DNA of 21,868 nt from a virus, in IMG/VR virus record IMGVR_UViG_3300027782_003632, positions 1 through 21,868 of that record. One strand, given 5' to 3'. Below, piece by piece: positions 1 through 19,417 of the stretch; the first letter of the stretch is position 1; each line of letters opens with the position of its first letter. The position numbers were made by a program, and so were the translations under genes. The notes beneath the pieces are model-generated. The model was not told the DNA's origin, did no database searches, and was given only the letters and a program-made list of their open reading frames with translations.

Positions 1-180
1 TGCTTTTGTCCAATTATTTGCTACTGATATGTCACAACGATTTGCAACAAGTTTATATGGATTCATACTATACAACTCTTTAGAATCAACAAAATAAATG
101 TATTTTCCAACAACCTTTTGTGGTTGTGTGGCTTCATTTATTGTTTCTCTGATTAGTTGTTTTAGTTCCGACTTTTTCAT
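1..180 (-). CDS. Partial small phage protein with CTS-like N-terminus
   Basis: An open frame begins at ATG 180-178 and runs off the left edge without a stop (60 codons visible). I do not recognise the family. It begins MKKSELKQLIRETINEA, an amphipathic helix closely similar to the start of the preceding gene (MTKSQLKQLINEVISEM). The segment contains INE followed by Ala, which fits the (I/L)xE cleavage rule of T4 prohead protease gp21 and recalls the short capsid-targeting sequence of T4 internal proteins. The rest (YIYFVDSKELYSMNPYKLVANRC) shows no motif I can name. The start sits one base after the upstream stop (TAA-T-ATG), so the two genes are probably translationally coupled. The coding call is fairly secure; the packaging role is inference. 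Confidence 0.7.
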   Translation of the reverse strand, partial: MKKSELKQLIRETINEATQPQKVVGKYIYFVDSKELYSMNPYKLVANRCDISVANNWTKA

Positions 181-3458: not shown

Positions 3459-5114
3459 TTAATGCAATAACCATGTGAGATCTTCTGCCTTTGAACCATG
3501 AATACTGGGTCCGCCAATATGCATTTGCCACGGATTGTTGTATACTCCAAATGGATTGACACTTTTTCCTGCATTTATAAGCTTTATGTTATTGTATGCC
3601 TGTTGCGCTTGGCTGGTGCCTATTCGATCAACAATTGCCATGGTTGCGGCATTTGATTCTTTTCTGAGACGCAATGCAACATCTCTGATCCACAATCCAA
3701 TTCCAATTGCCATTACAAGATCGTCATTATATCCGTCCATTGCTTCGGCTTTTGCGGAAACAGCACCAGACTTCCATATAAAGACCTGAAGTTCCTCAAT
3801 AAGACGCTTGCTGTGTACGATAACTTCTTTATTTCTAAAATAACTTTCTAACTTTGATATAACAAGTGGTCTGGTTTTATTTGATGTCGTAAATCCGGGA
3901 GTCATTTTTTTCTCCAACGCGTTTATTTTGTTGGTCATTTGCGTTTCTACATCGACATATTGCAAATCTGAAGAACTATAAAATAAGTTTGGATAATTAT
4001 TATCTAACACTTCTTGTATCACAGCCCATCCAACATTGGCATTTTCTATAACAAGTAGCGCGTTGTTGTACTCGGTTGCCATCGTCATCAATGCTCTGGC
4101 ATATTCCTTTGTTGGAATTTTTCCTTTATATTCTGCAACTTGTTCCATTGTTTCTATATCAAATATCTGGGCGGCACTAAAGTCCGACGCATCTCCACGA
4201 GCAACGTCCGCACTAACCATATATGATTTACCGGCAACTGGATACTTGAATATCCAATAACCTTTGTCGATTCCACGCTTTTCTATTGGATCAATTGCGT
4301 GATTTTTTTCATACCATTGAAGTAGTGAAATATCAATAACGGTATTACCTGATGTGCTAAATTCACAATCGCATTCTTGTGCTGCACCTTTTTCTCCAGA
4401 CAACTTTGTTTGATCGTCACGCCATTTTTGGTTGCGTTCTGGATGATGATGCCAAGGCAAACTGATACGATTCATGTTGTTTAGTCCAGATTCGCTTTCT
4501 GTCCACATTTTGTGAAACCAATTACCTACGCCATTTGGTGTAGATAGCACAACCGCTTTACCACCAGTAGCCAAAGTGTATTGAGAAGACAACCATATTT
4601 CGTCAATATTGTCGATGAACGCGGCTTCGTCGATTATCAACAAAGATGCGGCACCTGAACGACCGGCTGTACCTGCCGATGAAATAGCAACAATCTTTGA
4701 ACCGTTGGATAGTTTCAATGACAGTCGATTGTCTTCTGATTCTTTCAGTTTCAACCAACTTGGTAGATTGTCATTGGCAAAACGAACCTTGGTTACAATT
4801 GATTTGGATGTTTCTTGCGTGATACTTAAACAAATGATTTCTTTGTTTTCATGAAACGTCATGAGCCACAATGAATACGCAGCAACCAGTGTAGTAATAC
4901 CCATCTGACGACTTTTGAGAATAATGTTTTGATCATACTTGATCAAGTCAGACAAAGTTTTGTCTTGAAATAGATAAGTAAGAAATGGCAGTGTGCCGCG
5001 AATAGGATGTTGAATTTTCACATACTTCTTCATGAAGTATATCGGATCTTTCAAGCACTTGACATATTCTATCTTGATTATGTCCTTTAAATTTTGAGTG
5101 CTAGACTCAGACAT
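3459..5114 (-). CDS. terL: Terminase large subunit, T4 gp17-like packaging ATPase/nuclease
   Basis: A 551-residue motor that cuts concatemeric DNA and pumps it through the portal. The N-terminal ATPase has a Walker-A-type loop at residues 67-75 (KSRQMGITT), in which the usual lysine before T/S is Ile and a lysine sits at the loop start, as in several terminase families. Walker B plus catalytic Glu is at 158-163 (LLIIDE), and the coupling motif is STPN at 191-194. The C-terminal RNase H-like nuclease keeps its three acids: D303 (SADVARGD), E357 (VIENAN) and D464/D465 (YNDDLVMA). Length is slightly below T4 gp17 (610). The ATG overlaps the end of the 128-residue gene by 8 nt and has a good GGAG seven bases upstream. 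The portal gene follows, without the tail sheath and tube genes that separate 17 and 20 in T4. Confidence 0.96.
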   Translation of the reverse strand: MSESSTQNLKDIIKIEYVKCLKDPIYFMKKYVKIQHPIRGTLPFLTYLFQDKTLSDLIKYDQNIILKSRQMGITTLVAAYSLWLMTFHENKEIICLSITQETSKSIVTKVRFANDNLPSWLKLKESEDNRLSLKLSNGSKIVAISSAGTAGRSGAASLLIIDEAAFIDNIDEIWLSSQYTLATGGKAVVLSTPNGVGNWFHKMWTESESGLNNMNRISLPWHHHPERNQKWRDDQTKLSGEKGAAQECDCEFSTSGNTVIDISLLQWYEKNHAIDPIEKRGIDKGYWIFKYPVAGKSYMVSADVARGDASDFSAAQIFDIETMEQVAEYKGKIPTKEYARALMTMATEYNNALLVIENANVGWAVIQEVLDNNYPNLFYSSSDLQYVDVETQMTNKINALEKKMTPGFTTSNKTRPLVISKLESYFRNKEVIVHSKRLIEELQVFIWKSGAVSAKAEAMDGYNDDLVMAIGIGLWIRDVALRLRKESNAATMAIVDRIGTSQAQQAYNNIKLINAGKSVNPFGVYNNPWQMHIGGPSIHGSKAEDLTWLLH

Positions 5115-5512: not shown

Positions 5513-7633
5513 TCAAATTATTTTGTCTATCATTTTTATAACATCCTCTGGATATATCTCTTTAGTACATTCAAAATCTTTATTTCTGGGGCACCAGTTC
5601 CAATCGGATTTGTCAAATATACAACTTGCATCATTCCAACATCCATGACATACGTTTTTATTGATAACTCTATAAGGATTTTTGAATTCGGCAAACTCCT
5701 CGCTAAATCCACTGATAAGTATAACTTTTTGATGAACTCCCCATGCCAGCCAAGATAATCCAGATCCAAGTCCAATAAAAAACTCCGCACCCGCAACCTG
5801 AGACATTCTTTCTTCCAACGGGAATTTTCCAGTCTTATCGATGGCACCCGCTGGCATATAATTCATTTTACCACCAGACCCAAAACTGTTGTGTAAATCT
5901 ATGCACCACACTTCATATCCTTTGGATTTGATATAATCCACAACAAGGTTCCAGCCATTTGGATTGTTCCAATATTTTGCCTGTGTGGTGCTTTGTGTTG
6001 CAATACATACATATTTTTTATTATGCTTCAAAGGGTTTATATTCAAAGATGGTGGAATTTCCACCTCTGGCAATCCCAGTATATTTGCCGCCACCAACGC
6101 AAGTGATAAATGCTTTGGATTTTTTTTCATATTACCGTCCCAATTTTCTTGATCATAATAACCAATATAATACGTGGAGTAATAATTGTCATCGCCGTCG
6201 TTTGTTCTTGAGAACTTTATATTTTTGTAATTTTTGCTGAATAATTCAACTAGTTCCGTATTAAAAACAACACACGTAAGTTCGCAATTGTGTTTTTTCT
6301 GGAAGGCATCGGTTGTGCCAATATATGAAATAATATCTCCCAAGCTATTGGTATCAAATACCACTTTTATCGACTTTTTAGCTAAATCCAAAACGCGGGT
6401 TTCAATAAGCATTTCCCAATTTTCATTCACAACTTCATAAACTTCAATTTTCCATTTTACAAAATATCTTTTATTTGAAACGGACCACATATTATTTCTG
6501 AGTGTCGTTTCGTATATGACACTATTTGTATCCATATCATAAAACTTGACTTTATATTTTTTATTGACTGGTCCAAGTATTTCTACTTTTGGTCCACGCA
6601 AAAACGATATATTTATTTTATTTTTTGGTTCTTTTAGTGTTTGTTGAGAAGTTTGATAATGATTTATTATTCCATTGGCAAATATCTGTTCGCGATATTC
6701 ACTATACAATTTTGCAAGTTCATTTACTCTGATTCCATATGAATTGGAATTTGCAGTATTTAAAGCATCCTGTTGATATTGGTCAAAACTACCCACTACA
6801 GTTTTTATTCCGGCGACTGCATTATCAAGATTTCTATCAGTCACATACATTCCTTTATACGATGCGTCCTCGAACGTACCAACAATCGGCAAACCGCATG
6901 ACATTGCCTCAAGCAGTGTTAGGTTTGGATGTCCGGCCTCTAATTCTGAAAAATGGAGGAATATGTCATTTTCGTTATAAAGATCAACAAGCCATTTTTC
7001 ATCAAGGTCGAATAACTTTGTGAGACCTGTATATCCGTTAATTTCCGGAGACATTGTTTTAAAAAAATTCTTGTTGTTGCTGGGTCCGGCTATAGTAATA
7101 GGCAACGCCAGTTTCATTGCCGACTCAATAGCTATTTTGAAACCTTTTCGGTCTATGCTTTGATCATATGCATATCCGTTATTTGCAACACACAACAGTC
7201 TTGGCACATGTCGTCTCTGATGACCATTGAACTTAAATATGTCCGTGTTAACAGCGTGACTGAAGTAACGAAGCTTCTTGCTTCCAAAATATGGAATAAG
7301 ATATTTGCAAGGCGACAATGAAAATACGCTGTTTTCAATTGCTTGTAAATTTTTTCTAAATACATCGGAATCTTTACCATACAAATATGCATGATGATCA
7401 TGAATACTAAAAATATAAGGAATGCCGCGCTCATGGCATATAATTGCCAAATTGGCGACGTGCACATGAACAACCATACTTTCGTCATATTTTATATCAT
7501 CGAGATATTTGATTTCGCTGCGAATGCCAACTTTTAAAATTTCTTGGTGATAGTCCCAAATTATCTTTTCAACAGCGCCCCAACCATTTGGTGGAATAGG
7601 AAGTATGCCAGGATTTACATTAATTACTTTCAT
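5513..7633 (-). CDS. GT4 glycosyltransferase fused to TibC-like (BAHT) O-glycosyltransferase
   Basis: A 706-residue two-enzyme protein. Residues 1-~320 are a GT-B fold GT4-type glycosyltransferase with the acceptor-side GAVEKIIWDYH motif, a typical D(R)KG loop (~161) and a donor-side EAGHPNLTLLEAMSCG (232-247). Residues ~345-415 form a beta domain (GPKVEILG...KFYDMDTNSVIYETTL..NMW). Residues ~420-706 match the bacterial autotransporter heptosyltransferase (BAHT) family: SLGD (430-433), QSTTQAKYWNNPNGW (547-561), GLGSGLSWLAWG (621-632), LISGFS, and the cysteine cluster C662/C665/C671/C681/C689. In TibC, four cysteines hold an iron that supports assembly. BAHT enzymes attach sugar (heptose in TibC/Aah) to Ser on repetitive beta-structures, so a protein acceptor is likely here. 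Last gene of the island. Confidence 0.9.
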   Translation of the reverse strand: MKVINVNPGILPIPPNGWGAVEKIIWDYHQEILKVGIRSEIKYLDDIKYDESMVVHVHVANLAIICHERGIPYIFSIHDHHAYLYGKDSDVFRKNLQAIENSVFSLSPCKYLIPYFGSKKLRYFSHAVNTDIFKFNGHQRRHVPRLLCVANNGYAYDQSIDRKGFKIAIESAMKLALPITIAGPSNNKNFFKTMSPEINGYTGLTKLFDLDEKWLVDLYNENDIFLHFSELEAGHPNLTLLEAMSCGLPIVGTFEDASYKGMYVTDRNLDNAVAGIKTVVGSFDQYQQDALNTANSNSYGIRVNELAKLYSEYREQIFANGIINHYQTSQQTLKEPKNKINISFLRGPKVEILGPVNKKYKVKFYDMDTNSVIYETTLRNNMWSVSNKRYFVKWKIEVYEVVNENWEMLIETRVLDLAKKSIKVVFDTNSLGDIISYIGTTDAFQKKHNCELTCVVFNTELVELFSKNYKNIKFSRTNDGDDNYYSTYYIGYYDQENWDGNMKKNPKHLSLALVAANILGLPEVEIPPSLNINPLKHNKKYVCIATQSTTQAKYWNNPNGWNLVVDYIKSKGYEVWCIDLHNSFGSGGKMNYMPAGAIDKTGKFPLEERMSQVAGAEFFIGLGSGLSWLAWGVHQKVILISGFSEEFAEFKNPYRVINKNVCHGCWNDASCIFDKSDWNWCPRNKDFECTKEIYPEDVIKMIDKII

Positions 7634-7634
7634 A

Positions 7635-7736
7635 TTATTTTAATTTTATAAAACTTTTATTTGAATCTGCAAATATTTCTAATTTATCATGATGAAACTT
7701 ATTTGACCCAATTTCAATCAAAAACTTATCATTTTC
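7635..7736 (-). other. Out-of-frame coding remnant continuing the 587-residue GT gene
   Basis: The 95-nt gap before the 706-residue gene is not empty. In the +1 frame relative to the upstream gene, 33 sense codons (ENDKFLIEIGSN... to ...NKSFIKLK) run to a TAA exactly one base before the next ATG, the same TAA-T-ATG junction as at 184-178. The frame has no ATG start. Removing one A from the A4 run (7732-7735 on the plus strand) joins it to the upstream protein as ...NLIRNDKFLIEIGSN..., giving ~618 residues. A one-base indel (mutation or homopolymer sequencing error) or a +1 frameshift at AAA-UGA are the explanations. Confidence 0.55.
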
Positions 7737-9492
7737 TTATTAGATTGATATATGATATACAATCCGCAACATGCTCTCTATATAAAAACTTATCATCTTC
7801 ATATACAGAAATGGATTTAACATCCGAAAAAACTTCATTCCACGCCCAGCCATTCGCTACTTCTGTATTGTGAATAAATTCGTATTTTCCACCATCAATC
7901 TTTTCTACAACTATTTTTCTAAACGTAGATCCGGAGTGATATGAGTGCGTGTAAACGGCATACGATGATCCGCGATTGAATGTATTAGTTTCTTTATTGT
8001 GTTCGTTGATATAATAAAGTCGAGTAGTACACTTTCCGTATTTGGGATCAAAACTGCTGATAGATGTTTCTGTATTCCAACGTGTGTCTGGAAAGTCCAA
8101 TGTCATGGCATTTTCATCAAACTTTATTAAAAACTTTGAGTCATTATTTCTTTTTAAACTTTCATATACATAAACCTCAACTATACGGAACTTATTGTCA
8201 TCGTGATATTGTCTTAGATAATTTACATAATCTTGCTCGTTGGATAATCTCGGAACTTTGGATAAAAATTCATCTATGTTGCAATAAAAATAATGAAACG
8301 ACATATCCGGTGGATTATTACCTTCGTTGTAATAGAACAACCCGTGTTTATTTTCATTTGCGCACACATATGGAACCTGCTTTATATATTCTCTCGATTT
8401 TTCTCCAAATAGATCATCAACTTCAAATCTTTGAAAATGTGTATATCCTTGCGACTTTGCGTATAATAATGCATTAAAAAGATTTATCATCACAGACAGT
8501 CCGTGCTTTTGTAATACTGGAACAACGTCGTGTATATAAAATCCATCGGCGAGAGATTTCCAAAAATCTACAATACCAACATCGTCATACTTTTCTTGAA
8601 ATAGTTGATTGCGACTATCATACAAATAAAACTTTACATATTTTAAAATCTCCTTGTCTACCATGGTATTGGATACAAGCAATACTTCGTGACCATCTTC
8701 TTTCATCCAATTTATTGTATTCAATAATTTGGATCTAATTGAGTCGTTGTATACAAAACTATCAACTATGGTAATAACCTTGTGTTGAAATCTTGCATAT
8801 CTTTTTTTCAACTCCGATTTAATAATATTTTTATTTTCCAACTTTTCTTCGGCTGGCGTCATAGAAAACATTCCATTTTTATGTATTCTATACATTCCCG
8901 CGCAATGATTGACATCGCAATAACCTTTACCGTATTTTAATATTTCAAAGTTAAAAACCCAGTCGGGATATATAATGTCTTTGAATATCTCTCTTCTGAA
9001 TTCCGTTTTTTTAAATACTCGCGCAAATGACACATAGTTTTCAACAAGTAAATCTTTTAACTCAATATCTGGTTTGGCACTCACTATCCAATGGTTTTCG
9101 GGCGACACAACTCCATTTTCAAGATATCTACAACCGGAGCAGTATAAGGCATATGATGGATTTTCATCCAAATAATTAATAGAACGCTGATAATATCCAT
9201 CGTCTGTGAGATAATCGTCGCCATCTATATGTGCGATATATTTACCCTTGGCTTCATTGACCAATATAAGAAGATTTTCGACTGCACCCACATTCGTGGA
9301 AGAGTCCAATATTCTGACATTGGTATTTGCTTTGTATTTCTCATTTAACAATTCAAATGTACCATCATTTGTGCCGTCATCTCTGATCAACACTTCAAAT
9401 CCAAAGTCGGTTTTTTGTGACAATATACTATCAATACATTGTGAAATGAAATCTTTAAACTTATATGATGTGATTATGACGGATAGTTTCAT
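7729..9492 (-). CDS. Multidomain glycosyltransferase, GT2 N-terminus
   Basis: A 587-residue protein. Residues 1-~215 are a family-2 GT-A glycosyltransferase: VIITSYKFKDFISQCIDSILSQ, then RDDGTNDGT (37-45), GAVENLL and the metal-binding HIDGDDYLTDDG (88-99). Residues ~237-445 look like a second transferase-like domain (KVITIVDSFVYND..., then FEVDDLFGEKSREY at 356-369, a possible DxD-type site). The C-terminal ~140 residues are beta-rich and may bind glycan. It overlaps the upstream 435-residue gene by 4 nt (ATGA). The frame ends in TGA within an A4 run, and 33 more codons follow in another frame, so the C-terminus may be truncated by a frameshift. Soluble, no membrane segment, so a cytoplasmic transferase of the island. 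Donor and acceptor sugars cannot be read from sequence. Confidence 0.85.
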   Translation of the reverse strand: MKLSVIITSYKFKDFISQCIDSILSQKTDFGFEVLIRDDGTNDGTFELLNEKYKANTNVRILDSSTNVGAVENLLILVNEAKGKYIAHIDGDDYLTDDGYYQRSINYLDENPSYALYCSGCRYLENGVVSPENHWIVSAKPDIELKDLLVENYVSFARVFKKTEFRREIFKDIIYPDWVFNFEILKYGKGYCDVNHCAGMYRIHKNGMFSMTPAEEKLENKNIIKSELKKRYARFQHKVITIVDSFVYNDSIRSKLLNTINWMKEDGHEVLLVSNTMVDKEILKYVKFYLYDSRNQLFQEKYDDVGIVDFWKSLADGFYIHDVVPVLQKHGLSVMINLFNALLYAKSQGYTHFQRFEVDDLFGEKSREYIKQVPYVCANENKHGLFYYNEGNNPPDMSFHYFYCNIDEFLSKVPRLSNEQDYVNYLRQYHDDNKFRIVEVYVYESLKRNNDSKFLIKFDENAMTLDFPDTRWNTETSISSFDPKYGKCTTRLYYINEHNKETNTFNRGSSYAVYTHSYHSGSTFRKIVVEKIDGGKYEFIHNTEVANGWAWNEVFSDVKSISVYEDDKFLYREHVADCISYINLIRK

Positions 9493-10796
9493 GGTCGTTT
9501 ATATAATTTTGGATCAAAGTAATGCATATACCAATCCGATACATTTTCATTATATAGGCTGGCCCAGCGATGTGGTTTTCTACCTAGCCATCTTTCAGCT
9601 TCGGCTCTTTCCATATTTACTTCTATCATTTTTGCGGTGATATTGTCAAGTGTATTTATATACTTTGCACTTGCCCACCAGAAATTGCCAGAATAATAGT
9701 TTGTAAGTACTTTATCCAAAAACTCAAATTTATCAACATGCAATGCTCCACACACATCGTGTTTTCCTGTAATAATTTCAGTGTGACATTTTTTCCATTG
9801 TTCTATGTTAAAATATTCAAGACATTCTCTCCAAGACTCTATGTTGCGATCATACGAGCGAGATGTTCCTTTTGCGTGATAATACACTACGGATGCATTT
9901 GGATTGTTGGCGCAATAATTCTGTAGATGAATAAGTGTGGGAAACTCATACATGTTTTTTGTATAACGATATACTTCTATCTTTCTGTCTATATCATATT
10001 TGTCCAACAGCCCAATAAAACTACGATATACGTCATCCTTATCAACATTGACTCCATAAACAATTTTGTCCGCTCGCTTGTATAGACCAGAATTGCTCAG
10101 TTTTAAAAGCTGGCTATTAACAATGTCATACCAATGATTGGTAAGATAGTTATGAGAAAAAACTCCAATTGGTGTATTTTTTAATACTCCAATACCTCCC
10201 CATTGAGAATAATCGTTTTTTCCAACTATTTCATGAAATTCATTCTGCCTGCTATAATCAGAGTGTTTTGATGTAGCCACAAATTCGTGAACATCGTTGT
10301 ATGTGTCTTTTATTTCTTTCCAAAGAATGTCCACATTTATGTCGTATTGGCGATTAAGGTCGCTTGAGATGATGTCATGAAATCCTATATGCCCATCATA
10401 TGCCAAAAATTGCTTATATTTGTCATAATCATTTTTTGCCCCATTGTATGAATGGTCGCCATCAATAAAGATGAAATCAAATTTAATTCCAAGACTTTTG
10501 ATATATTCCAATGTATCATTGCTCTTAGAATCCGAAATAATATATTGGTATGTGGGATGCTTCTGTTTAAGTCTATCAAAATTGATATGGTGTTTGATGT
10601 CTATTGTTATTACCGTATCAAATAACTGACAAAATCCAGCAGTGGTTCCGCCATAATTTGAGCCTATTTCAAGAGCATAACGCTTGTTCTTTCTATCATC
10701 AAGCAGTGAAAGCAGCTGTTTATATTCTTCTGGCTTTTGTTCAATATTGAACCCAAGGCATTCTGTCCATATATTTTGAAATGTTTGTTCGTTCAT
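9489..10796 (-). CDS. SAM methyltransferase fused to glycan-associated domain
   Basis: A 435-residue fusion. Residues ~20-205 are a class I methyltransferase of the Methyltransf_24/CmcI-like type: YALEIGSNYGGTTAGFC (40-56) is the SAM-binding motif I, VITIDIK the motif II acid, and FIFIDGDHSYNGAKNDY (108-124) the characteristic IDGDHSY block, followed by DGHIGFHDI. Residues ~210-430 are a separate domain with VVYYHAKGTSRS (303-314), WRECLEYFNIEQWKKC (322-337), SGNFWWASAKYI (369-380) and HRWASLYN. I have seen this pattern in uncharacterised glycosyltransferase-associated proteins but cannot name it. It probably methylates a sugar while the second domain transfers or recognises one. It overlaps both neighbours by 4 nt (ATGA), central to the island operon. 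Confidence 0.85.
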   Translation of the reverse strand: MNEQTFQNIWTECLGFNIEQKPEEYKQLLSLLDDRKNKRYALEIGSNYGGTTAGFCQLFDTVITIDIKHHINFDRLKQKHPTYQYIISDSKSNDTLEYIKSLGIKFDFIFIDGDHSYNGAKNDYDKYKQFLAYDGHIGFHDIISSDLNRQYDINVDILWKEIKDTYNDVHEFVATSKHSDYSRQNEFHEIVGKNDYSQWGGIGVLKNTPIGVFSHNYLTNHWYDIVNSQLLKLSNSGLYKRADKIVYGVNVDKDDVYRSFIGLLDKYDIDRKIEVYRYTKNMYEFPTLIHLQNYCANNPNASVVYYHAKGTSRSYDRNIESWRECLEYFNIEQWKKCHTEIITGKHDVCGALHVDKFEFLDKVLTNYYSGNFWWASAKYINTLDNITAKMIEVNMERAEAERWLGRKPHRWASLYNENVSDWYMHYFDPKLYKRP

Positions 10797-11593
10797 CTTG
10801 CTGAGTTGTTGATTTTGTATGCGCTAAGTTCTGGATCTTGACCAGTGTGTAGAGAAGTAAAATACTTGCACATCATGCTTTTGTACCCCATATTTTTCCA
10901 TCGTATGGCAAACTCCAACTCAACGCTGGTTTTTTCACGGTCATATGTTGTGGAAAAATCTCCTACGGATAGTAGCTTCTTGACATGATGTACTCCAGGC
11001 CGCAAAGAAAAATACGGCCAATTAATATAATACATCCACCAATCTAGTCCAGTATGCATAGCCATAACATCATCCAAGAATAATAAATCATTCATTGGCC
11101 TGTTGTCAAGATAAATCGTCTCCCAAAAGTTCCCTATTATTTTCTTTGGCATCATATCAACTGGAAAATTTTTCCAACTTTGACAATAGCCCATATAAGC
11201 ATACTCTGGATATTGTTCCATAATATCTATAGCTTCACCTATATTAAACATATTATAAAACTGATGATCATCTTCCAGATGAAATACATAATCGGCATTT
11301 GAACTTTCTATACCATTTCTCCAGAAGTTCAATACTCTCGCATGTCTATAGTTGTCTGGAAATGTCTCCTTCTCAAAAAATCTGAATATCAAATTGGCAC
11401 TTGGTATATGCTTATGATAATACTCAATCGCCGTTGATCTTTCGTGTGGCTGCGAAGAGTCGTCATAATAGTGTATTTCATCTATTATATTCTTATCTTG
11501 GCAGAATATACCAAAACTTTGTATTGCGACTTTAAGAAGATTTATTCTTTTGCACGCTGTCGTAGTAAGTATTACTTTTTTTCCTTTATACAT
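10793..11593 (-). CDS. GT-A type glycosyltransferase
   Basis: A 266-residue protein with a GT2-like start (KKVILTTTACKRINLLKVAIQSF), an early acidic pair (YYDDSSQ, 42-48) and a metal/nucleotide-sugar motif in YVFHLEDDHQFY (102-113). Length is usual for a single-domain GT-A transferase. The region after ~150 is rich in Trp/Tyr (GLDWWMYYINWPYF, 182-195), as expected for a sugar-acceptor pocket. No signal or membrane segment. It overlaps the 185-residue gene by 8 nt and the next gene by ATGA. Specific sugar unknown. The transferase call is good; the family number is a best guess. Confidence 0.82.
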   Translation of the reverse strand: MYKGKKVILTTTACKRINLLKVAIQSFGIFCQDKNIIDEIHYYDDSSQPHERSTAIEYYHKHIPSANLIFRFFEKETFPDNYRHARVLNFWRNGIESSNADYVFHLEDDHQFYNMFNIGEAIDIMEQYPEYAYMGYCQSWKNFPVDMMPKKIIGNFWETIYLDNRPMNDLLFLDDVMAMHTGLDWWMYYINWPYFSLRPGVHHVKKLLSVGDFSTTYDREKTSVELEFAIRWKNMGYKSMMCKYFTSLHTGQDPELSAYKINNSAR

Positions 11594-12143
11594 CTGTCAA
11601 ATAAACATTTTTTCTTTTCTTTATAAATTTAGCTGGGCAACCCGCCACAACATCAAAATGAGAAGTAGACTTTGTAATCAGCGAGTGTGCGCCCACAGAC
11701 GTGGCATGCTCCAAAACAACATTTGGAAGTATTACTGTATAACATCCAACCAACGCATGTTTTTTTAACTCTATGTTTCCAGTAACCACCTTTTTGTACT
11801 TATCATCTATCACAGAATTGGCCATATAGCCGTCTGTATAATCATCATTTGCTGTATAAAGAATGCAGCGACCGGAAGTGCAACAACAATCTCCCAGAGT
11901 TATATTTCCGGAATTGCCATAAAAATAACATCCTGCCGAAATATGTACGCTATTTCCAATTTTTATTTTGTGATTTTTTCCAGCAATCAATACACATTGA
12001 GTATCTATGCGAACATTGTCTCCTATGATTATATTCTGGGCATTATGAATGATGACATCATTGGCAATATATACATTTTTGCCAAAAGTCATACCAGACT
12101 CATTCATTTCATCCTCTGTATAGTTTTGGAATTTTCTAATCAT
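11586..12143 (-). CDS. Hexapeptide-repeat (left-handed beta-helix) acyltransferase
   Basis: A 185-residue protein with repeating [I/V/L]-G-x-x-x-x units from residue ~38 to 150 (IIIGDNVRIDTQCVLIAG, KIGNSVHISAGCYFYG, ITLGDCCCTSGRCILYT, GCYTVILPNVVLEHATSVGAHSLI). The standard C-terminal cap is AGCPAKFIKKR (167-177). These enzymes are usually trimers that move acetyl or another acyl group from acyl-CoA to a sugar or amino sugar. An insert (TANDDYTDGYMANSV, 97-111) lies where related O-antigen acetyltransferases form the active-site loop. A C-C-C run at 86-88 is unusual. Next to the DegT-type gene it would fit N- or O-acetylation of the island's sugar. It overlaps both neighbours (4 and 8 nt). 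Confidence 0.9.
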   Translation of the reverse strand: MIRKFQNYTEDEMNESGMTFGKNVYIANDVIIHNAQNIIIGDNVRIDTQCVLIAGKNHKIKIGNSVHISAGCYFYGNSGNITLGDCCCTSGRCILYTANDDYTDGYMANSVIDDKYKKVVTGNIELKKHALVGCYTVILPNVVLEHATSVGAHSLITKSTSHFDVVAGCPAKFIKKRKNVYLTDV

Positions 12144-12769
12144 TGCTTATACACATCAAATTTGGATAAGTCTGGATATGGTAGCTCCAAATCTTCATTA
12201 TGCTTTGGTGTACCATCCATGTTATAAAATTGATTCATAAGAAGAACTCCACGCGCTGCCAATTCTGGCATCATATAAAAATTCCAACCTAGCATATCCA
12301 GATTGTCATCATGATATGAACATTCTCTTCTGCCGCTGTATCTGGCACGCTTAAACCAATGATATGCATGAAGATCGTCTGTAAGAATAGCACCACCCTT
12401 GCTTAATTTGAAGTGCTTATATGGACCGGTAAAAGATATGCACATGAACGAATTTGGAATATACATGTTGGCAGTAAAGCGCAATGCGCTATCCCACGTG
12501 CGCGTGGGCTTGAGCTGATATGCACCCTTGATGGTCTTGCCTTCAACCGGTTCAAAGTTTACCTTTCCGCCAGCATGTATGATCTCACATGGTACACTCG
12601 GGTACGTGCGGGAAGGAATGCTAATAGACTGTCCTTTTATATTTTGATAATATAATGATAAAAACAAAGCATTGCTTTGATTATCCACGGTGACTACATA
12701 TGGAGCACCAGTATATTTTGCTAATTTTTCCTCAAACTCTTCTGTTATTCTGTATACTCCGTTTGCCAT
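12140..12769 (-). CDS. Short DegT/DnrJ/EryC1-type PLP aminotransferase-like protein
   Basis: A 209-residue protein resembling only the N-terminal part of sugar aminotransferases (usual length ~370). Visible elements are YRITEEFEEKLAKYTGAPYVVTVDNQSNALFLSL (6-39, cofactor-phosphate region), SISIPSRTYPSVPCEIIHAGGKVNFEPVE (48-76), an Asp at 93 (TWDSAL, probable pyridine-N partner), and SFTGPYKHFKLSKGGAILTDD (112-132), in which K118 aligns with the PLP lysine. After ~180 it ends in PYPDLSKFDVYKQ and the small domain is missing. The protein looks intact and compact, so I read it as a minimal family form rather than a broken gene. Whether it is a true transaminase, isomerase or non-enzymatic is open. 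Six-nt gap after the GT4/FkbM gene. Confidence 0.82.
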   Translation of the reverse strand: MANGVYRITEEFEEKLAKYTGAPYVVTVDNQSNALFLSLYYQNIKGQSISIPSRTYPSVPCEIIHAGGKVNFEPVEGKTIKGAYQLKPTRTWDSALRFTANMYIPNSFMCISFTGPYKHFKLSKGGAILTDDLHAYHWFKRARYSGRRECSYHDDNLDMLGWNFYMMPELAARGVLLMNQFYNMDGTPKHNEDLELPYPDLSKFDVYKQ

Positions 12770-12775
12770 AATATT

Positions 12776-14710
12776 TTATTTGGTTGCAACTATAAACCCA
12801 CCGCCAGAGTGTTGATGCTTTATGGTGTATTTGAATCCAGACCCGCGCAACAATGCCAATAATATTGCAACTTCTTTGTCTATGGTTTGACCACCTTGCA
12901 TGTGATATTCAACCAATATTGTTCCAATTTTATCCAGATCTTCTTTCTGCATGCTATCAAAAAATGGATATTCGCCACCTTCTATGTCCATTTTCATCAA
13001 ATCTATATGATCAATATTATTTTCCTTGATAAAAGTGCGAAATGAAATTCCTTGTATTTTGTGAGAAACAACCAAACTATTTTGATGATTTTTATTGATT
13101 GATCCTATGGTAGAATTGCTGGGATCTATGAAAAACTCCAATTCACCATCTTTATCACACAATGCTTTGTCTATTATGGTCAATTCATCCGATGTATATG
13201 TATCTCTCAATGTTTTTAATGCTTGTGTGTTTGGTTCTATTGCATATATCTTTTTGCATTTGGCTACATACTTGATATATTCAACCCAAATACCAGCGTT
13301 GGCACCAACATCAACAACGGTATTAAACTCTTTTCCTTTCAAATATTCATTATATTCACCGTCTACAAAAAACTCCATATAGTTATTATATGTTGGGGTG
13401 ATATTATTCTTTGTTTTCAGTACTGGCTTTTCTACATTGACAGTTCGTATTCTGAAATCTTTGGAGTGTAATAAATTTTCTCCACTATATACCTCAACAG
13501 TCATTCCACCAAAAAGAATATCTGTTTCAAAATCTCTATAACTCTTGTGTACAGGAATAATCCAATAAGTTATATTGGCGTTCAAAATTTCATGTTGTGC
13601 TGCATACAACACCGTTTTTGAGTCTATGTCCTTTACAGACACAATTGCATTTTTAATATCGTGTTTGGACAGATATTCAATCTTGTTTTCCGAACGGTCG
13701 TATCCTATCTTGATATCTTCTTGTTTTTCTATAAATTCTGGCATAATATTGTTTGGTTTAATTTTCAGAGAGTTTAGTATTTTTGAGCAGTTGTCTTGCA
13801 TACTTTCAAAATTGAGATAGTTTATATTTTCGTATTTGTCATACATTCCAAGATACACTGGTAGATTATATATCAACGACGTAACATTGAACGATATAGC
13901 TTCTCTAATCACAAGAGGACTTGTTTCTTTATCATGTATGGTTCCTCGCGAAGTGAATAGAAAAAGATCCGCAATTTGATAAAAATTTTCAACATCTTTA
14001 CGTTCGTTCCACCACACACAATTGCTCGGAAAATCTTTCATCAATGGTTCCCAATAAAACTTAAAATTATCCGCCTGATTGCCGATGAAATGAAACTGGA
14101 CTGGATAGTCCTTCAACATCTTAGCATACCTAATTATCTCAGCTTGATTTTTTCTTGGAGTAAATAATCCAACATTTATAATATGTTTCTTATTTGGGTC
14201 AAGTCCAAGTACCTTCAACGCTTCCGCCCGAGGCTTTCTTGGCTTAATTACTATTGGATATTCACACACATCCATTGCTACATCCAGTGATTTCAAAGAT
14301 TCAAGTTGATACTTGCTTACGAACAGTATCTTATCAGGGAAAAATGTTTTATTTCTTGCGTCGAAACTGCTGTCGTGGGATGTTTCAATTATTTTATATT
14401 TTCTGTTTTTGTCATACAATTTTACTGCCAAATTGCCATCCATGAAATATTCTGGCATTTCTTCCAAATGAACAATTTCCGGATTTATTCGGTCTATGAT
14501 ATTCGGAAGATTCATTTTATCTTCACCAAGTTCTATGAATCTGTTTCCAAGAATCTCCTTTATTTGGTTTCTTTGAACAGTAAAGCCGCCATGATTTGAG
14601 TATTCAACACAATAAATTTCATGATCTTTGTGTAAAACTTGTATTTTCTTGAGCAAGAACTGGGGACATCCACCGGTTGAAAGGTGAGGTGCTATATAAA
14701 GAATCTTCAT
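12776..14710 (-). CDS. GT4 glycosyltransferase fused to FkbM-type methyltransferase
   Basis: A 644-residue fusion and the first gene of the island. Residues 1-~330 are GT-B/GT4-like: MKILYIAPHLSTGGCPQFLL (glycine loop), INVGLFTPRKNQ (178-189, donor-domain start), HFIGNQ, and a donor-site segment KETSPLVIREAIS (261-273). Residues ~340-430 are a beta-rich linker domain. Residues ~440-644 are an FkbM-type SAM methyltransferase with VVDVGANAGIW (465-475), AIEPN (490-494), ALCDKDGELEF and LMKMDIEGGEY (571-581). FkbM enzymes O-methylate sugars in several glycan pathways. No membrane or signal segment. It starts after an A/T leader without Shine-Dalgarno, 30 nt after the zinc-ribbon gene. Both domain calls are secure; substrates are not. 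Confidence 0.9.
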   Translation of the reverse strand: MKILYIAPHLSTGGCPQFLLKKIQVLHKDHEIYCVEYSNHGGFTVQRNQIKEILGNRFIELGEDKMNLPNIIDRINPEIVHLEEMPEYFMDGNLAVKLYDKNRKYKIIETSHDSSFDARNKTFFPDKILFVSKYQLESLKSLDVAMDVCEYPIVIKPRKPRAEALKVLGLDPNKKHIINVGLFTPRKNQAEIIRYAKMLKDYPVQFHFIGNQADNFKFYWEPLMKDFPSNCVWWNERKDVENFYQIADLFLFTSRGTIHDKETSPLVIREAISFNVTSLIYNLPVYLGMYDKYENINYLNFESMQDNCSKILNSLKIKPNNIMPEFIEKQEDIKIGYDRSENKIEYLSKHDIKNAIVSVKDIDSKTVLYAAQHEILNANITYWIIPVHKSYRDFETDILFGGMTVEVYSGENLLHSKDFRIRTVNVEKPVLKTKNNITPTYNNYMEFFVDGEYNEYLKGKEFNTVVDVGANAGIWVEYIKYVAKCKKIYAIEPNTQALKTLRDTYTSDELTIIDKALCDKDGELEFFIDPSNSTIGSINKNHQNSLVVSHKIQGISFRTFIKENNIDHIDLMKMDIEGGEYPFFDSMQKEDLDKIGTILVEYHMQGGQTIDKEVAILLALLRGSGFKYTIKHQHSGGGFIVATK

Positions 14711-15439: not shown

Positions 15440-18400
15440 TTATATGGATATTCCCAATATAGTTTTAGCCGCTTTTTGAATTGGAGCATATTCTGCTGGT
15501 TCCAATCCGGCTTGAGCAAGACCTTCCTTGGCTCTTTCCATTGCTTTGACTTGAACATCTTTTGGTAGAGTCTTCATGAGTGTTAGCAATCCAACATAAC
15601 TTCTGAAATTTTCAATATCTTGACCACTTGGCTTGCGTTTAAAAATTAATTCAAATACTTTATTTACGCTGTTGATACGGTCTTCTGGTTTGCTTTCACT
15701 GGCAGCAATGTCGGTATAAACATCTACTTTTTTACCTTGATAGTCCATATTCTTGGCTACAAGACGATATGCCTTGCGCACACCAGCATGACCAGAACCG
15801 CTTGTATTGAGGGTATATTCTGCTGGTAGAGCATGTGTAGCATTGACTGATACAACACTCTTGCCTTTGGCATCAACCAAACTCTTCAACTGACCAGATT
15901 GTATCTTGAGTGCAGTTGAGTTGGTGACATACACTGCATTTGGTAGTGCGGTTGCTGCTCGTGTCAAACCGCGTAATAAAATAGCTCCTGCCAATCCTTT
16001 GATGCCAGCTATCAAATCTTGCCATGGAGAATCTTTGATGAATTTGTTCCATTCAGATGGCTTTTCATAGCCTTGCGGGTCCAATGTCATTTCATCTCCT
16101 TCAAAGTCGATTTGAACAACCTGTTTTACTGGAGCATAATACCACAATGTGACTGTTTGACCGGCCAAGGCACGTTGATTTTTTGTACGACCAACATAAT
16201 AAAAATTCTTGCTTACTTTATTTTTTGGTGTTGCTTTCCATTCAACTTGCTTGTCATCAATGCTGTCCAAATATGCTTCCATAGCATCCAACTTTTCTTT
16301 TGGAACAATAACATCAACATCACCAAATCCAGATTTATATTTAGCCAAATCTTTATATTTTTCATCGCCGCTCATTAGATACTGGGAACTTCCATTAAAA
16401 ACAAAACCATTTTCAATATATGGATTATTTTTCTTCCAAAAACCCACCTTACTATTTAGTGCATAAACAAGTTCTTTCACATCACCAGATACAGCAGAAC
16501 GAATGTCTTTGCCTTGTGGATCAACAATCCTGAGTTTTGTGGTGGCTTGGGCTGGTTGACCATTTACGGTCTTTGACGTTTTGTCATCTATAGCAGCAAC
16601 AGATTGACCAGACTCGGTCAATAATGCAATTTCTTCACGAATAAGTTGCTTGGCTAGTTCTATACCAAGATTTGCGTCACGTTTTATCTTTTCAATATTT
16701 TTCATAGCTTCTGGTGTTGCTGCTTTTTCTAATTTTTTTGCAGTGCTTGCTGATTTCATATTTTTTATGAATGTATCTAGCACATATTTTACAAATTCTT
16801 CTCTGGATTTAAATGTTGTTCCATTCTTTGATACAACAACTCCTTTATCAAATGCTCTATTATTATCAAGTGCTTTACTCAAAGCAACCACGGTTTCGCA
16901 TTTTTTCTTTAATGATGGATCATTTGCATCCAATCCATAATAGCCTTGTAATGCCGATGAATTTATTTTTGAAACACCAGCAAGGTTGCCATAGAACTTC
17001 AATATATCCAAAAATACTTGATTTGGATTAAAGAACACATGCTTTGAGTTTGTTTTTATTAGCGACGAAGCAACACTACCATCCACAGTATTTACATACG
17101 GATTGGTATTTGATCCCAACACAACATTAAGAGCATCGGATAATGCACTCAATAGATTTCCAGTAACAAATCCTTTTAGTCCTTTTTCTGGAGTTGTTCT
17201 AATTTTTGTCCAGTCCGATGATACTTTATACGACAAAACCAAATCAACTTGAATTTTTTCACCACCAACGTTGAATATTAAATATCCTGTACCAAAGTCT
17301 TCGTCTTGAAAGTTTGGATATATATAACTTGGTTTTTTTTCTTGAATAAACTGGATAATCTTTTCTGAATATTTTTTATTAGATGCTAGTTGTGATGTTC
17401 TATCATTGGTTTCTTCTGGTAATATAATTTGAATATCTATATCACCATATTCTACATCATCTTTTTCCAAATCTTGTTTATAATACATTGCTGAACCTAC
17501 TAGTCCATTGGATTCTATTGGAGGAAGATTTGAATATGAATTGAATTCTGATACAAATTTATCCATTGCACTCAAAATATTTGATACTTTTTTTGGAGTT
17601 ATAATAGTTAATTGTGTAGCAGTGGATCTCCAACCACCTTCATTAAACATTTCTTTTTCCATTTCATTTATAACTTCCTCAGCAAATTTTATATATGGAT
17701 TAACTTCTGATACCGGCTCTGGCTTGTTTTTTATCAGCGTATTCCAAATTTCTTCTTTGTCTTTGTTGCCGACCGGTGGAAGATTTTTCAAGAATAATTC
17801 TTTATCATTGTTCATCAAAAATTCACGCATTTTTGTGCCACTTACATTCGCTGTGGTAGTTCTTTCAACACCAATTTTTTTAATTTTATTAGCAGCCAAC
17901 AACTCTGGATACTTTTTTAAATCTTCGTCTTTGAAGTTTATTTCAACATCATCTTTGTCAGAATACAAATTTATGGTTGGTATATCCGCTGCGTCTTGAG
18001 TCAATCTTTGTTCCAACCATCCAAGTTCATGCATAATAGCTCGAACAGGAGAATCAACAAACTTTACTTTTACATTTTTTGGCAAAGATGGAATAAACAC
18101 ATCACTCCATAGTTTTACAAAGTCATCGCCCTTTATAGGAAACTCACCCTTCTTTATTCTATCAGAAGATGATGTATAAACAATGACTCGATCATTTTCA
18201 TTGGCTGCTTTTTCAATAAGCTTCCAATGACCAATGTGCAATGGCTTGCCAGCAATTGGAATAAGACCAAGATTTTTGTTGGTTGATCCCAACAAACCTT
18301 GTTTGGATGTCATCAAACGAATTGTATCATGAATATCATCTTTGATTTGAACAATATTCTTTTTGTCACCAGCAATCTGTTTTAGAGCATCAAAGAACTT

Positions 18401-19360
18401 TTTTAACTTTGGTTGATTCTTGGCAACATAAAAATTTGAATCTGAAATAACGTCTTCTTCGGATTTTCCTTCAGTACCAATTGCAGCAAAAATATTTTGT
18501 ATCAATGCTCTGATTTGTTGAAAGTATGCTGAAGCGGCTTCTGGTTCAAGTTTATATGCGTCCTTCTTTGCACCACGAACTCCAGCATCATATTGATCGG
18601 CTTGCACCAACTTGAAGAACTCTCCATTATCAAGCTTCATTACCACACCTTCTGTTGTGCCACCCAATGTAGATGGAACAGCCAGAATAGCTTCCGAAAA
18701 TTTTGTTACAACATCAGTCGGATTAGTCCAATCAACATTTGTTAGTTTTGATCCAAACAAAGGATTCTTCAGCAGATTTTCCTTGCTGAGTTTTCCTTGA
18801 AAGAAGATAGGAAATGCTGATATTTCCAACAAGTCTGCCATCTTGTTCACAGACTTGTAGTCTGTTATTTCTTGTTTCGGAATGGTATGCAAATCTCCAC
18901 CAACCACACGATACTGCACTTCACCATAACTTCTCAAAAACAAGCCACCCTTGTTGACATATGTACGAGTCAAAGTGTCTTTGTTTTGAGCAAACTCAAC
19001 GCTAAACTCAGTGCTTTTTGGAATACTGTTAATCTTGTTGTTTATCTTGGACAAATGATCAAATATCATGGAATATTGACCAATACCAACAGAAGATTGA
19101 GATATATCACCTTTTTCTTTATCATTCAAATGAGCAAACTCTTTGGCATACAACACAGTTCCTTTATATGCCACAATCCAATTCTTGGTATAATCTGCTT
19201 TATCAACTTGCTGTGTACGTACCAATGTTAGTTTTGTTCCATCCACCTTTTCGGTGATGACCATGTTCTGACTTAGTATTTCATTGGCTCTTTTTAGACG
19301 CAGTGACTCTGTTTTTGGTTCAAAAATATACTTTTTTAGGTTTTTTATAGAAATGTCCAT
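15440..19360 (-). CDS. Multi-enzyme protein: ligase-like, HxGH nucleotidylyltransferase and two Pol-beta NTase domains
   Basis: About 1306 residues from ATG 19360; a GTG eight codons upstream is less likely. Numbering is from that ATG. Module 1 (~1-270): covalent nucleotidyltransferase (RNA/DNA ligase superfamily), KVDG 38-41 (motif I lysine), EFSVEFA 118-124 (III), EGVVMK 237-242 (IV), FFKLVQ (V). Module 2 (~360-530): HIGH 375-378 and VSGTKMR 506-512, as in NMN/pantetheine-phosphate/glycerol-type nucleotidylyltransferases. Module 3 (~575-880): Pol-beta NTase, GS 622-623, D640/D642 (YGDIDIQI), D706 (IQVDLVLS). Module 4 (~960-1150): second Pol-beta NTase, GSS 990-992, D1014/D1016 (FGDVDVIV), D1085 (VQIDF). 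Segments EEVINEM and QLIREEI lie at the 2/3 and 3/4 junctions. RNA or cofactor repair is a fair guess, not shown. A TATATATA lies nine bases before the ATG. Confidence 0.88.
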   Translation of the reverse strand: MDISIKNLKKYIFEPKTESLRLKRANEILSQNMVITEKVDGTKLTLVRTQQVDKADYTKNWIVAYKGTVLYAKEFAHLNDKEKGDISQSSVGIGQYSMIFDHLSKINNKINSIPKSTEFSVEFAQNKDTLTRTYVNKGGLFLRSYGEVQYRVVGGDLHTIPKQEITDYKSVNKMADLLEISAFPIFFQGKLSKENLLKNPLFGSKLTNVDWTNPTDVVTKFSEAILAVPSTLGGTTEGVVMKLDNGEFFKLVQADQYDAGVRGAKKDAYKLEPEAASAYFQQIRALIQNIFAAIGTEGKSEEDVISDSNFYVAKNQPKLKKFFDALKQIAGDKKNIVQIKDDIHDTIRLMTSKQGLLGSTNKNLGLIPIAGKPLHIGHWKLIEKAANENDRVIVYTSSSDRIKKGEFPIKGDDFVKLWSDVFIPSLPKNVKVKFVDSPVRAIMHELGWLEQRLTQDAADIPTINLYSDKDDVEINFKDEDLKKYPELLAANKIKKIGVERTTTANVSGTKMREFLMNNDKELFLKNLPPVGNKDKEEIWNTLIKNKPEPVSEVNPYIKFAEEVINEMEKEMFNEGGWRSTATQLTIITPKKVSNILSAMDKFVSEFNSYSNLPPIESNGLVGSAMYYKQDLEKDDVEYGDIDIQIILPEETNDRTSQLASNKKYSEKIIQFIQEKKPSYIYPNFQDEDFGTGYLIFNVGGEKIQVDLVLSYKVSSDWTKIRTTPEKGLKGFVTGNLLSALSDALNVVLGSNTNPYVNTVDGSVASSLIKTNSKHVFFNPNQVFLDILKFYGNLAGVSKINSSALQGYYGLDANDPSLKKKCETVVALSKALDNNRAFDKGVVVSKNGTTFKSREEFVKYVLDTFIKNMKSASTAKKLEKAATPEAMKNIEKIKRDANLGIELAKQLIREEIALLTESGQSVAAIDDKTSKTVNGQPAQATTKLRIVDPQGKDIRSAVSGDVKELVYALNSKVGFWKKNNPYIENGFVFNGSSQYLMSGDEKYKDLAKYKSGFGDVDVIVPKEKLDAMEAYLDSIDDKQVEWKATPKNKVSKNFYYVGRTKNQRALAGQTVTLWYYAPVKQVVQIDFEGDEMTLDPQGYEKPSEWNKFIKDSPWQDLIAGIKGLAGAILLRGLTRAATALPNAVYVTNSTALKIQSGQLKSLVDAKGKSVVSVNATHALPAEYTLNTSGSGHAGVRKAYRLVAKNMDYQGKKVDVYTDIAASESKPEDRINSVNKVFELIFKRKPSGQDIENFRSYVGLLTLMKTLPKDVQVKAMERAKEGLAQAGLEPAEYAPIQKAAKTILGISI

Positions 19361-19417
19361 GCTTATAAGTATATATAAATACACAAATATAGCTTCAAAA
19401 ATAAAGGATACGTTATA

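Follow-up and report, generated by a model that had tools for sequence, protein, structure and literature searches.

A single gene on the minus strand of IMG/VR record IMGVR_UViG_3300027782_003632 encodes four consecutive enzyme modules with nucleotidyl-transfer motifs. The record, a 21.9-kb DNA of an uncultured virus, was analyzed over its whole length of 21,868 nucleotides, hereafter the window. The frame is open over 1314 codons (15440–19384), and homologues use the start at M9 (nt 19360), in line with the end coordinate of an original prediction made for this DNA. Because the relatives begin there, we took the protein to comprise 1306 residues, numbered 9–1314 as in the longest open reading frame (ORF), with the gene at 15440–19360 (ATG at 19360, stop at 15440–15442). 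The gene or part of it was found in 28 viral loci, and the ratio of nonsynonymous to synonymous substitutions (dN/dS) of its modules was 0.05–0.25 in 19 of 20 estimates (module 2 against L017 was not computable), so the gene is not a chance frame.

Module 1 (residues 9–300, 18485–19360, minus strand) is a T4 Rnl2-like ligase domain with K46xDG, E245G and K258, and module 2 (residues 365–560, 17705–18292, minus strand) is a HIGH-superfamily adenylyltransferase with HIGH at 383–386 and SGTKMR at 515–520. The match of module 1 to Pfam RNA_ligase (PF09414) stays under the cut-off of 27 bits (E 5.8e-4, 20.5 bits), and module 2 matches phage cytidyltransferase and NMN-adenylyltransferase families (phrog_395, E 6.9e-7). 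Among 39 sequences of modules 1 and 2, K46, D48, G49, E245, G246, K258 and H386 are invariant and S515 nearly so; H383, the first His of HIGH, is not kept in the split relatives. AlphaFold2 models were built from the window protein and viral homologues, divided into residues 9–583 and 584–1314 (dN/dS was estimated with the same border; by residue count junction 1 itself lies at E582|G583). The first model (predicted local distance difference test, pLDDT, 90.8) resembles T4 Rnl2 most closely over module 1 (2hvr, Foldseek E 4.1e-7), with tRNA ligase (6n0t) also found, and its module 2 matches the NMNAT, NadD and PPAT folds (best Z 12.8, root-mean-square deviation (rmsd) 2.9, 152 aligned). A profile of the two modules searched against PDB sequences found PPAT and NMNAT and no ligase. 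The fold and motifs I and IV suggest that module 1 is an Rnl2-type ligase, with RNA sealing as its predicted activity. It shares the KxDG and EGVV motifs with T4 Rnl2 and differs from it in the sub-threshold PF09414 score, in the outcome of the PDB-sequence search and in its fusion to a HIGH adenylyltransferase.

Module 3 (NTase A, for nucleotidyltransferase A; residues 583–895, 16700–17638, minus strand) had no match among the families searched and carries GS at 630–631, D648, D650 and D714. Module 4 (NTase B; residues 925–1314, 15443–16612, minus strand) carries GS at 998–999, D1022, D1024 and D1093 and belongs to phrog_19290 (E 9.5e-23), a family without assigned function. The triads of both NTases are invariant in the alignments made. 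In the model of residues 584–1314 (pLDDT 87.0, predicted template modeling score 0.55), NTase A matches DNA polymerase beta/mu (Foldseek E 1.4e-3; Z 10.2, rmsd 3.7, 182 aligned). The PDB matches to this model span NTase A only and say nothing on the fold of NTase B, and the alignment used for folding misplaces 12–26 residues in each stand-alone NTase B row. NTase B aligns to NTase A over GS, GDxD and QxD (hhalign E 9.2e-6, probability 83, run on non-overlapping parts); a profile search of solved structures with the NTase alignment gave nothing useful. The GS, DxD and third Asp of a Pol-beta palm are thus placed by fold in NTase A and by motifs and hhalign in NTase B. Among viral structures, the NTase model fits BFVD entry A0A6J5TD12 best (25% identity, 343 columns); this 1096-residue protein of an uncultured phage, named ParB/Sulfiredoxin, is perhaps a further NTase A fusion.

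The original prediction had read four nucleotidyl-transfer modules in one frame, had described all their key residues as kept and had looked to structure prediction for the fold of each. The four modules stand, supported for modules 1–3 by models and fold searches and for NTase B by motifs, a profile match and hhalign. The claim on key residues holds for the ligase residues, H386 and the NTase triads and fails for the first His of HIGH.

Relatives and module architectures

Relatives were collected by four viral-contig scans and from other loci. At least 252 ORFs matched, and at least 133 were left after dropping ORFs contained in another; the NTase B matches numbered at least 80, so totals that depend on NTase B are lower bounds. 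Contig ends truncate many of the 252 ORFs, and some contigs appear more than once. The architecture of the window gene, ligase–adenylyltransferase–NTase A–NTase B, accounts for 88 of them, followed by NTase B (at least 70), ligase–adenylyltransferase (41), NTase A (19) and NTase A–NTase B (10); rarer forms are ligase–adenylyltransferase–NTase B (9), ligase (9), NTase B–NTase B (3) and three odd singletons. The same enzymes thus occur elsewhere as separate genes, as three-module fusions and in an inverse-order fusion. Of 41 loci that have NTase B and the ligase as separate genes, several of them the same contig, 39 place NTase B upstream of the ligase gene and on its strand.

NTase A is cleanly missing from the fusion at L028, and L022:2013-5159 shows an in-frame loss of most of NTase A that may be a real variant or an assembly fault. 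A third lineage (L105 and others, 11 ORFs) has NTase B first, then a ligase-like region recognized by motifs only, then an adenylyltransferase (hhalign E 1.8e-5, probability 78, for the L105 type). At L121:7036-8769 and beyond, an NTase B–ligase–adenylyltransferase protein continues, by eye, into an HD phosphohydrolase-like stretch. Since NTase A can be missing and the order can be reversed, a fixed module geometry is not needed. One enzyme with four coordinated sites is not favoured: four-module genes, ligase–adenylyltransferase–NTase B, NTase B–ligase–adenylyltransferase and split genes all occur.

Other partners were seen, with the joints read by eye. NTase A follows a GNAT acetyltransferase domain at L199:5575-7008 (joint MVIE|GGW), follows a weakly matching KOW-like segment at L203:5806-7008 (joint with L/I/V-x-E) and precedes a GH19 glycosidase at L214:4118-5821 (joint ALTE|G), and a ligase relative at L149 has a weakly matching P-loop domain in front (joint IIE|S). 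By eye, the C-terminal part encoded at L117:8600-10100 repeats GVAE before G, A or S, perhaps further head-protease sites.

A match to the window protein was found in 23 of 50,697 records of named phages (17 Campylobacter, 6 Vibrio), with split genes. The domain order of the window protein, which the original prediction had proposed to look for in other phages, recurs among the viral contigs. With another query, Xanthomonas phage X1 was found to carry NTase B, ligase-like (read from motifs) and adenylyltransferase-like genes apart. NTase A had no tblastn match in the named phages, and no cellular relatives appeared in one scan of genome contigs. Modules 1–2 together with a Pol-beta NTase are an unnamed, widely shared enzyme pair that cultured phages of Campylobacter, Vibrio and Xanthomonas carry, the last with separate genes.

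Module borders and T4-type head maturation

T4 gp21 is described as cutting after L/I-x-E, and capsid-targeting sequences (CTSs) of 10–19 residues as sending T4 internal proteins into the prohead core (PMC9026906). The borders of the window protein carry signatures of this kind, which the original prediction did not see. Junction 1 (residues 561–582, 17639–17704, minus strand) is a CTS-like helix that ends in FNE582 and is followed by GGW, with a predicted cut site at E582|G583. Junction 2 (residues 896–924, 16613–16699, minus strand) is a CTS-like helix, ELAKQLIREEIALLTE924, followed by SGQ, with a predicted cut site at E924|S925; residues 921–926 are the sole stretch of at least three residues with pLDDT below 50 in the 584–1314 model. 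The motif [LIVMF]xE[AGS] occurs three times in the 1306 residues, and two of the three are the borders E582 and E924. The window protein has no terminal propeptide: its signatures are internal, FNE|G at junction 1 and LTE|S at junction 2.

Both signatures are conserved. At junction 1, E precedes GGW in all 18 fusions having the place (third residue before the cut, P3, F in 13 and L in 5). At junction 2, E precedes SG(Q/K)S in 25 of 26 fusions, with L at P3 in 25, the 26th (L146) reading LSE|AEGKS, and dN/dS is 0.03–0.23 (one estimate not computable).

The same signatures stand at the ends of short propeptides in stand-alone relatives. When NTase B heads its own chain, GGN lies at the start of the domain in 51 of 53 non-redundant ORFs, the other two being truncated or partial, and GGN is preceded by E in 27 (11 of them inverse-order fusions, all E-type) and by the start Met in the remaining 24; P3 in the 27 is L (17), I (8), M (1) or F (1). 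Outside the fusions, NTase A shows E|GGW in 17 of 18 ORFs (the 18th is truncated), after 8–18 residues in 14 and after a longer extra part in 3, with I (8), L (6) or V (3) at P3. Of the 32 ligase-bearing ORFs that could be scored at their start by the position of DISI, 21 carry, upstream of DISI, an [LIVMF]xE that is followed by A, G, S or T; other ligase rows, including the four-module fusions, were outside this scoring. At the aligned place, the NTase B of Campylobacter phage CP220 starts MKLSELMFILE|GGN, that of pv27 starts M|GGN behind AAGGA, and the window reads LLTE|SGQ.

In 48 chosen loci, [LI]xE[AGS] lies near the N-terminus in 10 of 11 NTase A, 17 of 37 NTase B and 10 of 25 ligase proteins, compared with 48 of 465 other genes and 68 of 1395 internal 30-residue windows. 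Applied to T4 as a control, it picks 7 of 10 head-maturation proteins (IPI, IPII, IPIII, gp24, gp22, gp68 and gp23, the gp23 match not being at the known site) against 22 of 245 ORFs in all; Alt, gp21 and gp67 were not picked. In sequence, the propeptides resemble T4 CTSs that follow the L/I-x-E rule for cutting by gp21. CTS-like starts were also seen on other proteins: a cytitidyltransferase of cyanophage S-SSM7 (VKSFGQFLTE|A), which resembles module 2 as a HIGH adenylyltransferase and differs in that no ligase or NTase module was seen by eye, and, as candidate head cargo, a Nudix protein (L037:9998-10387, MIKLKDLLPE|S) and an RNase_T-type exonuclease (L038:571-1422, MIKLKDILAE|A).

E|GG and E|SG mark the module borders just as they end the propeptides of stand-alone relatives, so a precursor of three proteins is more likely than the one working four-module enzyme that the original prediction had described. 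That the protein acts uncut, as one multifunctional enzyme made during infection, with ordinary linkers as junction helices and E|GG as a fusion leftover without present function, we consider unlikely. The modules do lie in one continuous frame, whole or partial, in the 28 loci, and cutting of the chain is something that we infer rather than observe; junction 1 also departs from the L/I-x-E rule and evolves fast, and the protease family discussed below does not track propeptide type. However, although the junction helices vary in places, 18 of 18 fusions retain the Glu ahead of GG and 25 of 26 that ahead of SG; L028 has no clean NTase A unit, and another fusion lineage has the reversed module order.

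Close relatives of the window encode a gp21-type protease. In a 297-kb relative (G001), the gp21-family protease (PF03420, E 3.3e-25) and a Gp23 capsid protein (E 1.8e-77) are encoded on the same strand as the four-module gene, and the capsid protein reads, by eye, AKQLIDE|A where the T4 site would lie, close to the AKQLIREEIALLTE|S of the window. PF03420 and Gp23 (PF07068) are both present in all four fusion records searched (G001, G004, G005 and G010; two four-module, two three-module). Among the 41 records with these enzymes, PF03420 was found in 19 and Gp23 over the cut-off in 21, and the NTase A records have each in 3 of 5.

The window itself ends before the protease and capsid genes. Its late-gene context consists of T4-type genes for the portal protein (1436–3397) and the terminase large subunit (3459–5114), both on the minus strand like the four-module gene. 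Near the portal gene, two further minus-strand ORFs have CTS-like N-termini: one that runs off the window (1–180, beginning MKKSELKQLIRETINE|A) and a small one (182–505, beginning MTKSQLKQLINEVISE). Residues 865–949 of the four-module protein have a weak Pfam match to the crAss001 auxiliary capsid protein (E 0.0035, below the cut-off). Between the terminase gene and the four-module gene (5513–14710, minus strand) lie glycosyltransferase, FkbM methyltransferase, aminotransferase and hexapeptide-repeat genes, some of them recognized by eye.

On balance, we somewhat favour the explanation that the gene encodes a T4-type phage head-cargo polyprotein from which the prohead protease releases three proteins that are then injected. 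The modules would once have been separate proteins, several of them individually tagged as head cargo, and fusion would have left tags and cut sites inside the chain. The precursor would be made together with the late genes, and the CTS-like helices (about 561–582 and 896–924) would draw it into the prohead core, where a gp21-type protease would cut after E582 and E924. The predicted products are a ligase-adenylyltransferase of 574 residues, an NTase A of 342 residues with the N-terminus GGW and an NTase B of 390 residues with the N-terminus SGQ, which would leave the head with the DNA and act ahead of phage gene expression.

Several results weigh against this explanation. The junction 1 helix evolves fast (dN/dS 0.07–1.04), and its P3, F in 13 of the 18 fusions and in the window protein, is outside the T4 L/I rule. 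The 24 M|GGN NTase B proteins and 11 of the 32 scored ligase-bearing ORFs lack a propeptide, as does the ligase start of the window, four-module fusions beginning with MDISI. Over all genes of G001, the N-terminal motif is only mildly enriched (16 of 249 against 48 of 1245 internal windows). No T4 late promoter TATAAATA was found upstream of the four-module gene; it occurs 8 times on both strands of the window against 3.5 expected, a count reached by 4 shuffles. The genes for NTase B and the ligase lie about 65 kb apart in phage CP220, and neither enzyme is named among the 11 gel bands identified from CP220 virions. For Campylobacter phage IBB_35, likewise with a propeptide-type NTase B, the authors infer that most identified virion proteins are uncut (PMC3322345); the same report lists 25 virion proteins without homology.

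The distribution of the protease is also the reverse of what the head-cargo explanation predicts. Of the 18 records whose NTase B is propeptide-type, 4 have PF03420 and 4 have Gp23, as opposed to 8 of 14 (PF03420) and 10 of 14 (Gp23) with M|GGN-type NTase B, so the protease is not commoner with propeptides; another prohead protease family, PF04586, was found nowhere among these 18. Gp23 over the cut-off is also missing from the 14 propeptide-type records, many of them fragments, in which PF03420 was not found; their T4-type head block may therefore be off the contig or too distant.

Predicted roles and known systems

For the head-cargo polyprotein, RNA end repair is the likeliest role, judged by fold likeness, a basis that itself counts against the explanation. 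The ligase would seal and the NTases restore end nucleotides, for example on tRNAs cut by host ribonucleases. This role is favoured because the frequent partner of NTase B resembles Rnl2 and tRNA ligase, because large phages have been described with ligase and NTase repair (PMC7824862), and because G001 carries 36 tRNA genes and a phage-borne tmRNA (L037:5822-18596, L038:204-280 and 7795-8185, and L042:16133-18156, on the same contig as L007). The RNA repair or anti-defence role in the original prediction thus stays plausible.

RlaP (PF10127) is a Pol-beta NTase said to act beside RNA ligases in large phages (PMC7824862), a likeness to the present set. The two NTases of the window type differ from it: PF10127 has no match at either. 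RlaP was rejected as their identity, PF10127 being found in 3 of the 41 records and never at NTase A or B. The true RlaP of G001 lies elsewhere (G001:101913-102542), and its gene is near ORFs resembling macro domain, metallophosphoesterase and cRec domain proteins (L038:1838-6997, minus strand; three by eye), a possible RNA-repair cluster.

The products might instead be injected host-takeover effectors, with NTases that modify host proteins or tRNAs like Pol-beta NTase toxins and a ligase-adenylyltransferase serving a related end. Such a role differs from RNA repair by packaged enzymes in function only, the odds of the two overlapping in the packaging step, and we hold it for distinctly less probable. 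T4 Alt is described as a packaged and ejected modifying enzyme (PMC9026906), Pol-beta NTases are listed among the protein-modifying domains of polyvalent proteins (PMC5512222), and one relative joins a GNAT acetyltransferase to NTase A. Yet NTase B often has an Rnl2-like ligase beside it or fused to it, and such a partner suits nucleic acid substrates better than proteins.

We regard a role in cofactor metabolism as improbable. Module 2 would make NAD from NMN, feeding the ligase or restoring NAD after host depletion; it does fold like NMNAT, NadD and PPAT, and the 297-kb relative encodes the Nudix protein with a CTS-like start. However, the score of module 2 is far under the NMNAT equivalog cut-offs, module 1 resembles RNA ligases in the fold search, and NadV (PF04095) was found in only 3 of the 41 records, none of them among the four fusion, two Vibrio and three Campylobacter records (many of the 41 are fragments). 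The NadV counts weaken canonical NAD salvage, and with it the NAD/nucleotide-cofactor salvage that had been proposed for this gene.

Two known systems come close to the head-cargo polyprotein. As in T4 internal head proteins (IPI, IPII, IPIII and Alt), whose CTSs gp21 removes, many stand-alone relatives bear a short N-terminal stretch that ends in L/I-x-E before A, S or G, and close relatives of the window have a PF03420 protease and a Gp23 capsid. T4 cargo is described as single proteins with terminal propeptides, whereas the window protein joins several enzymes in a chain that has its tag-like helices and cut-like sites inside. Polyvalent proteins, known from phages and from conjugative elements (Iyer 2017, PMC5512222), likewise join several unrelated enzyme domains in one phage protein and were proposed to be injected and likened to polyproteins. 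Embedded peptidase domains are described for them; the sites in the window instead resemble those of a separate phage head protease. The four modules fill most of the window protein, and no peptidase family matched it up to E 0.1. Titles and abstract openings of the literature searched described neither the four-module architecture, in line with the original view that no described protein joins all four, nor a phage protein with cut sites separating its enzyme modules.

Taken further, and put forward tentatively, the gene may represent an RNA-virus-like polyprotein strategy in tailed-phage heads. Internal helices would bring a repair set into the head, where the protease would cut it; once injected, the enzymes would repair RNA damaged by host defences ahead of any phage gene expression; the conserved GGN and GGW N-termini, whether made by cutting or by a direct M-GGN start, would matter for activity. 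Because these N-termini would matter, cutting may also switch the enzymes on.

If true, the T4 rule for packaging single proteins would extend to whole enzyme sets. A sequence rule also follows that may be of wider use: a CTS-like helix with L/I-x-E before GG, SG or A would predict which uncharacterized proteins of T4-type phages are carried in the virion. As the enzyme pair is present in cultured phages, function and packaging can be tested together. Should the enzymes repair RNA, these phages would hold a pre-made answer to RNA-cutting defences.

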